A program made the position numbers and the translations under genes. Under the pieces are notes generated by a model, which did not search any database, was not told the DNA's origin, and worked only from the letters and a program-made list of their open reading frames with translations. This document shows, piece after piece, positions 54 through 4,860 of a stretch of 34,193 nt of DNA (position 1 is the stretch's first letter; each line of letters opens with the position of its first letter). Origin of the DNA: a virus; the IMG/VR virus record IMGVR_UViG_3300010885_053334, positions 1 to 34,193 of that record, one strand, 5' to 3'.

Positions 54-566
54 ATGAAAATCGAATCAATCGCAGTAGAGAAGCTCATCCCGTACGCCCG
101 GAACGCCCGGAAGCATTCAGACGAGCAGGTTGCGCAGATTGCGGCGTCGATCCGGGAGTTTGGATTTAACAACCCGGTATTAATCGACAAGGAAAACGGG
201 ATCGTTGCGGGGCACGGGCGGGTTCTCGCGGCCCGGAAGCTGGAACTCGAAAAGGTCCCGTGCGTTCGACTCGATCATCTGTCCGACTCTCAACGCCGGG
301 CTTATATCATTGCTGACAACCGGCTAACTGAAACCGGCGGCGGATGGGATGACGAAATGTTGGCTGTTGAATTAAGCGAACTGCGGGAAATCAATTTTGA
401 TTTGGACCTGACAGGATTTGACGCTTCAGCGATTGAGCGGTTCTTGAATCCTCCGGAGCCGGAAGAAAAGACAGCACCAGAAGACTTCCCGGAGGTCGAT
501 GAATCAATCGAAACAGAACACGAATGCCCAAAGTGCGGCTATGAGTGGAGCGGAAAATCGAAATGA
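54..566 (+). CDS. ParB/sulfiredoxin-fold (ParBc) domain protein with C-terminal CxxC
   Basis: A 170-residue protein. Residues 1-130 match the ParB N-terminal/nuclease-like domain: an opening strand with LIPYARNARKH (11-21), then the signature GHGR at 53-56, the nucleotide-binding box of this fold. The tail from about residue 132 is acidic and proline-rich and ends in CPKCGYEW (158-165), a single CxxC that could bind metal only as half a site. Phage ParBc proteins of this kind commonly sit next to or are fused to DNA methyltransferases and terminase genes, as here, and some are nucleases or CTP/ATP-binding proteins. Its stop overlaps the next start (ATGA at 563), so it is probably co-translated with the methyltransferase. 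The exact activity is not known from the sequence. There is no clear Shine-Dalgarno site; the leader is A/T-rich (gttaacaaa). Confidence 0.85.
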   Translation: MKIESIAVEKLIPYARNARKHSDEQVAQIAASIREFGFNNPVLIDKENGIVAGHGRVLAARKLELEKVPCVRLDHLSDSQRRAYIIADNRLTETGGGWDDEMLAVELSELREINFDLDLTGFDASAIERFLNPPEPEEKTAPEDFPEVDESIETEHECPKCGYEWSGKSK

Positions 567-1906
567 AGATTTGGGTTCAAAAATCATTAGGGCTCCAGGC
601 CCCCAATCTCCGCTTTTTCCCGGGATACGCGCACGGCTTCACTGACGAGACAAACAGCCCGTGTCCGACCATCGACACAAAACCACGAAACATTGTGATC
701 GAACATTCCGCTTCCCCCAATCCCATGAAATCTGAAAAGCCGCCCTACATCGTCCCGTCTATGGAGGAGGTTCGGAACCTCCCGTGGAACGGCTTCACAG
801 TTGCCTCGACATTCTCCGGGTGCGGCGGATCTTCGATCGGCTACCGCATGGCGGGGTTCAAAGTCCTTTGGGCATCCGAGTTCATTGACGCGGCGCGGGA
901 AGCGTACAAAGCAAACTGCGCGCCTTATACCGTAGTCGATGGTCGGGACATACGCGAAGTGCAGGCAAAGGATATACTCGACGCCTCCGGGATCGGGGTT
1001 GGAGAACTTGATCTGTTTGACGGTTCTCCACCGTGCGCTTCGTTTTCTACCGCGGGAAGCCGGGAAAAGGGATGGGGGAAGGTGAAGAAATACAGCGACA
1101 AAGCGCAGCGGACTGACGATCTGTTCTTTGAATACGCCCGGCTGATTCGAGGCATTCAGCCCAAGACCTTTGTTGCGGAAAATGTAAGTGGGTTGGTGAA
1201 AGGAACGGCAAAAGGATATTTTCTGGAAATCCTGCGGGAATTAAAATCCTGCGGCTATCGGGTTTCTTGCAAGGTCCTCGACGCTCAATGGTTGGGCGTA
1301 CCTCAGGCGCGCCAGAGGACAATCTTTGTCGGTGTTCGCGAAGACCTCGGGCTTGACCCCGTACATCCGAAGCCGCTTCCATTTCGGTACAGCGTGAAAG
1401 AAGCGTTGCCGTGGATTGAATCTTTGGTTCACGATACTTCAGAAAAATATGGAGCCGGAGATGTAACAAACAGACCTAGCCCAGCAATTACGGTAGGAGT
1501 GAACTCCGTCAACAGTTTGCATTTTAAGGTTCAAGGTTTAACAATTGACGATGAAACGGACATTAGCCGATACGCAATCGGCGCGGAGTGGGAGAAAATG
1601 GGAAAGTCCGGAACGCAATCGGAAAAATATTTTCAACTTGTGCGACCTGCTCTTAATTTACCTTGTCCAACGATTACTGCAACCGGATCTGTACTCGGGG
1701 CCGCTTCTGTTGTGCATCCTACAGAAAAACGAAAATTCACAATTAAGGAGCTCAAACGCATCTGCGGATTTCCTGACGATTTTATTTTGACCGGAACCTA
1801 TGCGCAGCAATGGGAGCGTTGCGGGCGAGCTGTTCCGCCGGTAATGATGAGCCATATCGCCGCGGCGGTCCGGGATGGTATTTTGAAAAATCAAAAAAAT
1901 TCATGA
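563..1906 (+). CDS. DNA C5-cytosine methyltransferase with variant motif X (GRAVPP)
   Basis: A 447-residue protein counted from the ATG at 563, which overlaps the previous stop; an in-frame ATG at 545 would add six residues. C5-methyltransferase motifs are in order: motif I FSGCGGSSIG (84-93), motif IV GSPPC with catalytic Cys158, motif VI FVAENV (203-208), motif VIII QARQR (248-252), a motif IX-like LPCPTITA (366-373) and motif X CGRAVPPVMM (420-429). Two oddities stand out. Motif X has Arg422 where almost all family members have Asn (GNAV/GNSV). The N-terminal 75 residues before motif I carry an extra SPCPTID (32-38), resembling motif IX, and a further PSPAIT lies at 305-310. It is an orphan enzyme with no restriction endonuclease beside it. 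The next gene is a CmoA-like SAM enzyme overlapping by four bases. It may transfer methyl, or possibly carboxymethyl, to cytosine in phage DNA; the latter is inference. Confidence 0.93.
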   Translation: MKIWVQKSLGLQAPNLRFFPGYAHGFTDETNSPCPTIDTKPRNIVIEHSASPNPMKSEKPPYIVPSMEEVRNLPWNGFTVASTFSGCGGSSIGYRMAGFKVLWASEFIDAAREAYKANCAPYTVVDGRDIREVQAKDILDASGIGVGELDLFDGSPPCASFSTAGSREKGWGKVKKYSDKAQRTDDLFFEYARLIRGIQPKTFVAENVSGLVKGTAKGYFLEILRELKSCGYRVSCKVLDAQWLGVPQARQRTIFVGVREDLGLDPVHPKPLPFRYSVKEALPWIESLVHDTSEKYGAGDVTNRPSPAITVGVNSVNSLHFKVQGLTIDDETDISRYAIGAEWEKMGKSGTQSEKYFQLVRPALNLPCPTITATGSVLGAASVVHPTEKRKFTIKELKRICGFPDDFILTGTYAQQWERCGRAVPPVMMSHIAAAVRDGILKNQKNS

Positions 1907-2553
1907 ATATCCCAAGAGATTGGACATTCAAAGACGCCGGTATCGCTGAAGGGTTTGACCGCCACGTGCGCGAACAACTCCCGTGGTACGACCTCACGAC
2001 CGGAGTGATTGCTCACATTGCGCGCCACTACGTTTCGGAGAACGGGTTGGTGTACGATATAGGCGCGTCGACAGGGAACGTCGCAAATGCAATCTCTGAA
2101 ACCCTGAGCAGCAGGAACGCAAAATTAATTGCGATTGAAAACTCAGAACAGATGGCAAAGCTGTACTCCGGACCCGGAGAAGTCGTTGTTGCAGACGCTA
2201 CGGAATTTCAATTTAAGAAGTGCGATTTTGTTGTCTGTTTTCTGGTGTTGATGTTCATCAAGCCCTGCTTGAGGGCGGAGTTGATTTCTAGGATCCTTGA
2301 AAGCCTCAACGCCGGCGGCGCTCTTGTGGTTCTTGATAAATGCGTCCCGGTTACAGGTTACCCTTCCGTGGTTTTGCAGCGCCTTGCTTTGGCCGGGAAA
2401 GTCGCCGCAAAAGTAAAGGCAGATGAAATTGTGAAAAAGGAACTCTCGCTTGGCGGCGTTCAACGCCCTTTGAATCCAAAGGAATTGCCTGAAACGGCCG
2501 TCGAGTTTTTCCGGTTTGGAGATTTTGCCGGATGGTTGATTGAGAAGCTATGA
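1903..2553 (+). CDS. CmoA-like class I SAM-dependent enzyme
   Basis: A 216-residue protein starting at the ATGA overlap at 1903. The first part aligns by eye with carboxy-SAM synthase CmoA: RDWTF (5-9), then a helix ending LPWY (26-29), then SAM-binding motif I YDIGASTGN (51-59), acidic residue E79 after the second strand, ADATEF (97-102), and the FIKP...LNAGGALVVLDK region (118-146). The end FFRFGDFAGWLIEKL (202-216) matches the CmoA-family C-terminus. CmoA converts SAM and prephenate to carboxy-SAM. E. coli CmoA uses Arg199 for the carboxylate; by my hand alignment (IVKKELSL, 176-183) that position is Glu180 here, with Lys178 and Lys179 beside it, and the preceding C-terminal part is shorter. 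It could therefore be a diverged carboxy-SAM synthase or an ordinary methyltransferase. The tight coupling to the C5-methyltransferase with Arg in motif X suggests a shared role. Confidence 0.85.
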   Translation: MNIPRDWTFKDAGIAEGFDRHVREQLPWYDLTTGVIAHIARHYVSENGLVYDIGASTGNVANAISETLSSRNAKLIAIENSEQMAKLYSGPGEVVVADATEFQFKKCDFVVCFLVLMFIKPCLRAELISRILESLNAGGALVVLDKCVPVTGYPSVVLQRLALAGKVAAKVKADEIVKKELSLGGVQRPLNPKELPETAVEFFRFGDFAGWLIEKL

Positions 2554-3113
2554 ACCTGACCGAACAAGCTATGAAAGCGCAGGTCGCGAATATCATCGCG
2601 GCGTTGAAATCCGGGAAACGAATATCTCGCGCGGAACAGGCAATGATCGCCGCGTACGATTCCGGCCGGGCTCCAAATTTTACACTTGAGCAGGTTTCTA
2701 AGCACTACGGAATAAGCCGGCCGGCCGCGTTGAAATGGAAGCGGGCGATGGAAAAAGAGGGGTTGGATTTCAATTCCTTCGACACGATTGACGAATTTCG
2801 CGCCCGGAAAATTTCCGAAAAAAATAATCCGGAAGACCATTCCGACGCAAAGCTGCGGAAAACGCTTTTGGAGGTCGAACGCTTAGAGCTTCAAGTGGCG
2901 CAAATCCGGGGCGATTACGTCAGTAAAGCCGAAGTGGTAGAACAGGGAATTGCTATCGGCGCCGCACTATCCGCGGAACTGGGATCTATGATGACTGACA
3001 TGCCGGGCGTTCTTGCCGGGCTGGATGAAATCGGCGTCCGAGGACGTTTGCAAACCCGCCTCGATTTAATGCTGGAAAGGACAAATGATCGACTCCGGGA
3101 AACCATTAATTGA
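2550..3113 (+). CDS. Terminase small subunit (Nu1-like)
   Basis: A 187-residue protein starting at an ATGA overlap with the CmoA-like gene. It has an N-terminal helix-turn-helix: FTLEQVSKHYGISRPAALKWK is centred near residues 50-70. After a variable linker comes a helical segment LRKTLLEVERLELQ and then GDYVSKAEVVEQG, a phrase typical of Nu1-type small terminases. In lambda-like phages this subunit binds the packaging site and stimulates the large subunit. Its position directly before, and overlapping by 29 bases, the GpA-type large terminase fits. The cos or pac site was not identified; in lambda-like phages it would be expected near or upstream of this gene. Confidence 0.8.
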   Translation: MNLTEQAMKAQVANIIAALKSGKRISRAEQAMIAAYDSGRAPNFTLEQVSKHYGISRPAALKWKRAMEKEGLDFNSFDTIDEFRARKISEKNNPEDHSDAKLRKTLLEVERLELQVAQIRGDYVSKAEVVEQGIAIGAALSAELGSMMTDMPGVLAGLDEIGVRGRLQTRLDLMLERTNDRLRETIN

Positions 3114-4860
3114 CGGGTGGCTGGAAGGCGCCAAGCCCGGCTACCGCGGAGATCCTTTGCGGTGGCTCGAACGTTGGGTCCGGCTTCCGCATTCCGCGCG
3201 CTCGACGCAATTTGATTCCGAGTTGGCGCCGTGGCTGAATGACGTCATCCGCGCCGTTTGCGACGACCACGTCAAATCAATTATGGTCCGGCTTCCGACC
3301 GGAGCGGGAAAAACGACGTTTCTGGAATTGATCACCTGCTGGATCGTCGCTCAACAACCCGGCCCAATGCTTCTTGTCGAGCAAACCGACGACACCTCAA
3401 AAGATTGGGCCGAGTCGCGGTTGATGCCCGTCTTTGAAGCCTGTGATCCGGTTGCCCGCCTATTCCCGGAAGACCGTCACCAGAAACGAAAGTCGTCGAT
3501 CATCTGGCCGCATATGGCAATGTTTATGAGCGGCGCAAACATGAGCGGGCTTCAGGGGAAGTCGATGCGCTATGTTTACTGCGACGAGGTTTGGCAGTTT
3601 AAACAAGGAATCCTCGGCGAAGCGGTAAAGCGTCTGCATGACCGCTGGAACCGGAAATTTATCTGCTGTTCTCAGGGGTGGGATTCATCACATGACGCGG
3701 AAGAAATTTGGAAAATTGGCCGGACTTTCGAGTGGGGGTTCACTTGCGCGGGTTGCGACAATTGGTCCAAATGGGCTTGGCTCGATATCAAATACGCCGA
3801 ACTCGCCGAGGGCGAAACCGAATGGAATTGGCAAGCGTTGCGGGAAAGCGTTTATCACGAATGCCGCGGGTGCGGTCATCAAACTCCGAACACGACCGCG
3901 GGCCGGCGGGCTATGGCCGCGGCGTCCTCTTACGAAGGGCAGAAGACGGGGAACTGGGTCGACGGGCACGTCAATTTTACGCTACCAGCGTGGGCGGTTT
4001 GGTGGATCGACTGGGCCGACCTAGTCGTTGAGTGGGTCAAAGCAAACACGGCAAAACGACTCGGGAACGTCGATCCGTTGAAACAATTCATCCAAAAGCG
4101 CGGCGCTCAGATTTGGTCGGCGGAGGACGACCGGCCGAACGTCAACCTTTTGGCCGCAAACTATTCTTGGGTGGATTACGCGAACGGGCAAAAGATTGAC
4201 GGGGAAGCGACCCGGTTTATCACGGTCGACGTTCAGAAAGATCACTTTTGGGTGCTCTGCCGGGCGTGGACGTCGGTCGGAACTTCCAAGCTGATCCTTT
4301 ATCAAAAGGTTTTGGGCGTAGACGAAATCGTGGACATCCAGCAACGCCTTGGCGTTCGCGACAACCTAGTTTTCATGGATTCCGGTTACGAATCCGGGAC
4401 CGTGTACGACTATTGTTCCCGGTTCAGCAAATACAACGACGCCGGCTGGCTTTGGAATTCCGGGTGGACGGCGTTGAAGGGTTCAAAGCAGGAACGGTTC
4501 GCGCACTTCCCGGCGCAGGGAAAAAGAGTCGATCGCTTCTTTTCTCCGCCGGCAAAAGTTTTAGGGGCAAGCGGAAAACATTGCCGACTCATTAGTTGGT
4601 CAAACTTGATCGCCAAGGACAAGTTAACACATCTGCGCGCCGCCGGCCCGGACGTTTGGGCGTTCCCTTCGGATATCGGAGCGGCGTACATGAAGCAGCT
4701 TGTCGCGGAGGCAAAGCGGGACGTTATCGACAAAACGACCAAGGCGGTCACCCAGCGTTATGTCCCGATTTATTCCGAAAACCACGCTTGGGATTGCGAG
4801 GCGATGCAAGTCGTTGCCGCTTCCGTGACTAATATTTTGAGGGGCGCCAACTCGGAATAG
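3085..4860 (+). CDS. Terminase large subunit, lambda GpA family
   Basis: A 591-residue packaging ATPase-nuclease. The ATPase carries Walker A PTGAGKT (71-77), preceded by a typical GpA entry (MVRLPTGAGKTT), the GpA-specific SGANMSGLQGKSMRY segment (149-163) and Walker B YVYCDE (163-168). A C-x2-C plus C-x2-C pair (CAGC and CRGC) in the 215-270 region could bind zinc. The nuclease half contains FITVDVQKDHFW, with its first acidic residue, and the late HAWDCEAMQ motif near the C-terminus, both GpA hallmarks. The start at 3085 follows a purine-rich GGAAAGGA at 3074-3081. It translocates DNA into proheads through the portal and cuts it. The stop codon TAG supplies the first G of the repeated GCTTCAC element. 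Confidence 0.96.
   Translation: MIDSGKPLIDGWLEGAKPGYRGDPLRWLERWVRLPHSARSTQFDSELAPWLNDVIRAVCDDHVKSIMVRLPTGAGKTTFLELITCWIVAQQPGPMLLVEQTDDTSKDWAESRLMPVFEACDPVARLFPEDRHQKRKSSIIWPHMAMFMSGANMSGLQGKSMRYVYCDEVWQFKQGILGEAVKRLHDRWNRKFICCSQGWDSSHDAEEIWKIGRTFEWGFTCAGCDNWSKWAWLDIKYAELAEGETEWNWQALRESVYHECRGCGHQTPNTTAGRRAMAAASSYEGQKTGNWVDGHVNFTLPAWAVWWIDWADLVVEWVKANTAKRLGNVDPLKQFIQKRGAQIWSAEDDRPNVNLLAANYSWVDYANGQKIDGEATRFITVDVQKDHFWVLCRAWTSVGTSKLILYQKVLGVDEIVDIQQRLGVRDNLVFMDSGYESGTVYDYCSRFSKYNDAGWLWNSGWTALKGSKQERFAHFPAQGKRVDRFFSPPAKVLGASGKHCRLISWSNLIAKDKLTHLRAAGPDVWAFPSDIGAAYMKQLVAEAKRDVIDKTTKAVTQRYVPIYSENHAWDCEAMQVVAASVTNILRGANSE

Follow-up and report, generated by a model that had tools for sequence, protein, structure and literature searches.

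A CmoX-like cytosine C5-methyltransferase and a CmoA-like protein form a predicted DNA carboxymethylation cassette in a phage genome record

Results

Gene order around the cassette

The virus record IMGVR_UViG_3300010885_053334 from IMG/VR is linear and 34,193 bases long; its entire length was analysed and is hereafter called the window. The following features lie at its beginning, and other genes on the record encode terminase, portal, protease, capsid, tail, lysis and recombination functions.

54 to 566, plus strand: ParB-like gene, 170 aa (Pfam ParB_N, E=2e-7; phrog_620, E=6e-59), with a C-terminal CPKC motif
563 to 1906, plus strand: predicted CmoX-like DNA cytosine C5-carboxymethyltransferase, 447 aa (Pfam DNA_methylase, E=2e-57; best PDB match 8YF3)
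1025 to 1039, plus strand: motif IV, SPPCA, read from the sequence, with catalytic Cys158 and with Ala159 at the position of Gln82 of M.HhaI
1826 to 1828, plus strand: codon CGA of Arg422 in motif X, predicted carboxylate binder (phmmer alignment to 8YF3 and column analysis)
1903 to 2553, plus strand: predicted CmoA-like carboxy-SAM synthase, 216 aa (TIGR00740; phrog_4752, E=3e-49), of the E180/R188 clade
2440 to 2442, plus strand: Glu180, aligned with Arg199 of E. coli CmoA
2464 to 2466, plus strand: Arg188, proposed relocated carboxylate-binding residue eight positions on (E/R versus R/V co-occurrence in 139 CmoA sequences)
2550 to 3113, plus strand: terminase small subunit (phrog_57, E=2e-6)
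3085 to 4860, plus strand: terminase large subunit, GpA type (Pfam GpA_ATPase, E=6e-26)

The ATG of the CmoX-like gene at 563 overlaps the stop codon of the ParB-like gene (translation could also begin at ATG 725), and the CmoX-like and CmoA-like genes overlap in turn by ATGA, the second ATG being at 1903 and its stop at 2553. The cassette lies directly upstream of the terminase genes in the window (54-4860) as well as in many related phages. The ParB-like gene is a conserved partner upstream of CmoX, and ParB-domain genes near CmoX have also been reported by Yang et al. (PMC12783734). A participation of ParB in the carboxymethyl chemistry was considered and rejected, because ParB also adjoins Asn-type methyltransferases and hence is not specific to carboxymethylation.

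The CmoX-like methyltransferase

The nearest characterized system comes from Yang et al. (Nat Commun, December 2025), who found that CmoA of the Synechococcus phage S-B43 makes carboxy-S-adenosyl-L-methionine (Cx-SAM) and that its partner CmoX (8YF3) moves the carboxymethyl group to C5 of cytosine, with Cys98 as the proposed nucleophile (PMC12783734). In this enzyme (SpCmoX), Arg350 stands in place of Asn304 of M.HhaI and contacts the carboxylate; the wild-type protein uses only Cx-SAM and not SAM, the R350N variant gained no use of SAM, and the enzyme acts in the GC context (PMC12783734).

The preliminary description of the window had placed GSPPC with Cys158 and CGRAVPP with Arg422 (residues 420-426) in the product of the open reading frame 563-1906, where both are present exactly as stated. 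By sequence, the best PDB match of this protein is 8YF3 (E=4e-67), followed by HaeIII (2e-23), and 8YF3 is also the first match of its AlphaFold model in a PDB fold search (E=2e-30); the model has a mean pLDDT of 80, with low confidence at residues 1-53 and 288-327. ERCGRAVPP of the window protein is aligned to ERVGRMVPP of 8YF3, so that Arg422 corresponds to Arg350 of SpCmoX and to Asn304 of M.HhaI. The Cx-SAM contacts of SpCmoX (F25, E47, F48, D69, C98 and R350) are matched by identical residues (F84, E106, F107, D129, C158 and R422). Thus, the gene product combines the C5-methyltransferase fold and the SPPC cysteine with the motif-X Arg, the contact residues and a linked CmoA gene, all of which it has in common with S-B43 CmoX (A0A514ABG7). 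On the other hand, the two proteins are only about 40% identical, and the residue that follows the catalytic Cys is Ala in the window enzyme but Ser in that of S-B43. The window enzyme is also longer: its N terminus is extended by a disordered stretch (residues 1-53, low pLDDT), and its C-terminal half contains a longer region that is partly disordered. A PCPTI-like motif in the low-confidence N-terminal extension (window 563-724) recurs twice in the C-terminal half of the protein, at residues 303-311 and 367-375 (PSPAITVG and PCPTITATG).

Within the CmoX family, four positions divide the enzymes with Arg in motif X from those with Asn without overlap, namely 159, 178, 184 and 422 in the window numbering. 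Position 159 is Ala or Ser in the Arg enzymes (64 of 64) and Gln or Val in the Asn enzymes (Gln in 16 of 17), position 178 is Ser versus Glu or His, and position 184 is Thr, Val, Ser, Ala or Cys versus Asn or Gln. Positions 159 and 422 are those of Gln82 and Asn304 in M.HhaI, the two sites that were enlarged in the engineered variant Q82A/N304A to accept bulky cofactors (PMC10666283); both differ in the window enzyme too. The motif-X site is also the one substituted in engineered M.MpeI N374K. These are laboratory mutants, whereas the window protein is a natural enzyme in which Ala159 and Arg422 occur together. The main text of Yang et al. (PMC12783734) makes no mention of the Gln. Its replacement at residue 159 may help to explain why SpCmoX R350N gained no use of SAM; it is not essential, however, since the GRSMAVP family described below keeps this Gln.

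Arginine in motif X and linkage to CmoA

Relatives were gathered from viral contigs and, as a second collection, from bacterial genomes, and linkage was scored when CmoA lay no more than about 5 kb away. The preliminary description had suggested looking for Arg enzymes that lack a CmoA partner. In viral contigs CmoA is nearby in 130 of 135 loci with Arg, compared to none of 26 with Asn, and two of the five exceptions (L054 and L162) end at a contig edge. After clustering at 80% identity the counts are 61 of 64 and 0 of 17 (Fisher 9e-15, a value that overstates the independence of the data within the CmoX family, because the R/N trait changes only twice on the tree); put differently, all 61 CmoA-linked cluster representatives carry Arg at motif X, and three further Arg representatives have no visible CmoA. 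In bacterial genomes, CmoA accompanies 33 of 37 Arg enzymes, but none of the 15 with Asn and none of the 18 with Met (GMSVPP). The tree was built without the motif-X column; one of its two R/N changes corresponds to a clade of 16 Asn rows with good support, and both changes accompany the absence of CmoA. A test on phylogenetically independent pairs yielded only one or two pairs, too few for power.

The CmoA-like protein

The CmoA hallmarks reported for the second gene (DWTF, LPWY, YDIGASTGN and FGDFAGWLI) are all found in the 216-aa open reading frame 1903-2553. The NCBIfam CmoA model TIGR00740 matches its product with E=1.7e-20 and 73.8 bits over residues 7-148 only, below the equivalog cut-off of 193.3 bits. 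The AlphaFold model (pLDDT 91) is nevertheless closer to CmoA than to other SAM methyltransferases in the PDB fold search, in which the first six matches are all CmoA structures (4gek, 4iwn and 1im8 among them). The overall fold (TM about 0.84) and most SAM-site residues are shared with E. coli CmoA (P76290; 4GEK, 4IWN), whereas Arg199, Asn132 and Asp89 of the latter are replaced by Glu180, Phe113 and Glu79, and the window cassette has no CmoB partner.

Arg199 of E. coli CmoA is a carboxylate ligand (PMC3663124). The preliminary description had correctly noted the Glu at this position and the shorter length (216 versus 247 aa), and had taken the former to speak against Cx-SAM synthesis. This argument falls, and with it the view that Glu180 rules out the synthesis of Cx-SAM: the active CmoA of S-B43 (SpCmoA) likewise has Glu at the Arg199 position, so the lack of the salt-bridge Arg does not disqualify the window protein, which instead has Arg188 eight residues on. 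Among 139 aligned CmoAs, 98 have a basic residue at the later site only, while in 34 Arg or Lys occupies the Arg199 site and the residue eight positions on is non-basic; in five neither site is basic, two are gapped, and in none are both basic. Exactly one of the two positions is therefore basic in 132 of the 137 sequences with letters at both, although the difference between E/R and R/V is mostly a clade-level one. SpCmoA has E/K at these positions, and phages outside these CmoA clades keep the rule of one basic residue in the combinations S/K, Q/K, A/R, E/K and R/V. From this pattern we infer that Arg188 is a relocated carboxylate ligand that would replace the Arg of the Arg199 type.

Within the CmoAs, the window protein falls into the E/R clade, which is also marked by M117, D145 and R160. 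It resembles the proven S-B43 CmoA (A0A514ABH6) in the Glu at the Arg199 position, in the basic residue eight positions on and in the phage context, but the two are only about 25% identical and fall into different clades, with M117/D145/R160/R188 in the window versus Q/E/F/K in S-B43. In the literature we found no published assay for a member of the E180/R188 clade. Because the TIGR00740 cut-off is missed and Arg199 is absent, we classify the protein as CmoA-like rather than as the bacterial equivalog; it probably works like CmoA. Window-type CmoA also occurs in records in which no C5-methyltransferase was found (L013, 1058-1804; L015, 2463-3200), although these contigs may be incomplete.

Other methyltransferase families and other contexts of CmoA

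A remote family of m5C methyltransferases (GSPCQDMS ... LGNSMAVPVM) contains members with LGRSMAVPVM (e.g. L021, 5627-6835; also L022, L023, L025 and L252-L260), and these have an overlapping upstream CmoA in eight of eight loci with intact flanks, compared to none of seven members with Asn; as several of these loci are nearly identical to one another, they should be counted as one further event and not as eight. The Arg members represent an independent Asn-to-Arg event and are likely carboxymethyltransferases. In this family the catalytic Cys is still followed by Gln and there is no SPPC, so the SPPC filter of Yang et al. would miss it.

The Met enzymes form a third class at motif X (GMSVPP, with PPCS; L221-L241, e.g. 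L227, 4911-6008), which shares about 30% identity with the window enzyme and comes mostly from Bacteroidota; its cofactor pocket appears to be modified but to contain no carboxylate binder. In Staphylococcus and Mammaliicoccus phages (L275, 4989-6688; L276, 4001-6519), CmoA neighbours an HhaI-like methyltransferase that has VVGGVIN, with no Arg, as its motif X, and in L276 CmoA is also accompanied by an Asn_synthase-type ligase. Since CmoA is paired here with a methyltransferase that lacks the Arg, the motif-X Arg is not the only solution, and the VVGGVIN enzymes are a possible third solution for the use of Cx-SAM. Gordonia phage Evaa (L278, 702-3952) has CmoA and no PF00145 C5-methyltransferase match in its complete genome; gp2, near CmoA, is a ParB domain fused to an uncharacterised region (phrog_5475). 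In Erwinia phage Yoloswag (L277, 3968-5626), CmoA has Arg at the Arg199 position and is followed by an Asn_synthase/QueC-like gene, and the only C5-methyltransferase matches are about 14 kb away.

Discussion

A probable two-gene carboxymethylation cassette

The two adjacent genes very probably constitute a phage DNA carboxymethylation cassette, in which the CmoA-like protein would make Cx-SAM and the CmoX-like enzyme would place the carboxymethyl group on cytosine. From the homology, the residues and the gene linkage observed here, the activity, the cofactor and the product in this phage can be inferred as follows. The CmoA-like protein would convert SAM and prephenate to Cx-SAM, the carboxylate being held by Arg188 instead of an Arg of the E. 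coli type. The CmoX-like enzyme would flip the target cytosine, and Cys158 would attack C6; carboxymethyl would be chosen over methyl by the pairing of Arg422 with the carboxylate, with Ala159 leaving room where methyltransferases carry Gln. The product would be 5-carboxymethylcytosine (5cxmC) in the phage DNA, presumably a protection against restriction. That the Arg binds the carboxylate and the second gene supplies the cofactor had been proposed in the preliminary description, and this proposal is supported, as the same mechanism has been demonstrated for homologues of both proteins (PMC12783734) and the linkage counts agree with it.

The final base

In S-B43, the ligase CmoY adds glycine, and the DNA contains 5gcxmC, while 5cxmC was undetected (PMC12783734). 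No match to the Asn_synthase domain (PF00733) typical of such a ligase was found in the 34,193 bases of the window, nor in the complete 40.7 kb genome of Moraxella phage Mcat8 (KR093632), nor in nearly all other records picked for the lack of a nearby ligase, whereas the known carriers of the ligase do match. Mcat8 shares with the window the order ParB-CmoX-CmoA-terminase and lacks the ligase throughout its genome; its CmoA and CmoX are 49% and 47% identical to those of the window, its motif X reads GRMVAP instead of GRAVPP, and these genes are unannotated in its record. We propose that the phage studied here, which appears to encode no CmoY, may stop at bare 5cxmC.

According to a rather unlikely alternative, 5cxmC is only the first step and is then amidated or otherwise converted by a ligase encoded outside the contig or by the host. 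Apart from the precedent of S-B43, this reading is favored by the presence of a CmoY-type ligase near 30 of the 64 Arg-type clusters, with 17 changes of the ligase state on the CmoX tree, and by the fact that the window is a linear contig, which may be incomplete, so that a ligase elsewhere is possible. However, among the cluster representatives, in which the orders ParB-X-A (28) and ParB-X-Y-A (21) are found, the ligase lies inside the cassette or close beside it and never upstream of ParB. The cassette of the window is complete from ParB to the terminase and has no ligase inside, and because no representative has one upstream of ParB, the absence of the ligase here is probably real. Together with the lack of PF00733 matches in the window and in Mcat8, this argues against a further conversion. 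A glycosyltransferase had also been considered as a candidate gene next to ligase-free cassettes but was dropped, as it was mainly a terminase family joined via one long open reading frame. The avoidance of restriction sites, considered as a sign of modification, was uninformative: the ratios of observed to expected counts in the window are 1.0 for GCGC and TGCA and 0.75 for GGCC and AGCT, with no clear pattern in GC-containing palindromes.

The cofactor

It is quite improbable that the window-type CmoA clade (M117, D145, R160, E180, R188) makes another derivative of SAM, from which CmoX would transfer a related acidic group. In favor of this scenario, a long branch (2.24 changes per column, support 98) separates the clade from the E. 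coli-like CmoAs, and several active-site residues of the clade are swapped. Nonetheless, nearly all CmoAs keep a basic residue at one of the two sites, and on the CmoX tree, in which many branches are weakly supported, the CmoA partner of Arg-type CmoX switches between the two clades at least 12 times; as either clade pairs with the same type of CmoX, we argue that they make one shared cofactor. Still more remote is the view that the first gene encodes an ordinary 5mC methyltransferase, with Arg422 and the CmoA-like neighbour (an unrelated SAM methyltransferase) being incidental: Pfam recognizes only generic domains and the CmoA equivalog cut-off is missed, but the Arg/Asn division follows CmoA linkage in three sets of sequences, wild-type SpCmoX with the same Arg takes only Cx-SAM (PMC12783734), and the fold of the second protein is best matched by CmoA structures.

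Conclusions

The carboxymethylation cassette is not a new kind of system, its chemistry having been published in December 2025 (PMC12783734). Particular features of the window are the E180/R188 clade of CmoA with its moved basic residue and the cassette without a ligase. A broader scenario, to which we give an even chance, is that phages of a ligase-free branch, to which the present one belongs, have bare, negatively charged 5cxmC as their end product, made with a CmoA clade with a rebuilt carboxylate site (Arg moved by eight positions), and that the change from Asn to Arg with the capture of CmoA occurred more than once in unrelated methyltransferase families (GRAVPP, and GRSMAVP of L021 and L252-L260).

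The prediction of DNA carboxymethylation from a motif-X Arg together with CmoA is confirmed here from raw sequence, in a test independent of Yang et al. Arg199 should be dropped as a requirement when calling Cx-SAM synthases, and Ala or Ser after the catalytic Cys, as well as the loop positions 178 and 184, are additional candidate predictive residues. The same switch has also turned up in a second methyltransferase family, which a search requiring SPPC would miss. Finally, the analysis points to phages without a ligase, among them Mcat8 of Moraxella, which has been isolated, as places where 5cxmC may be the final base.
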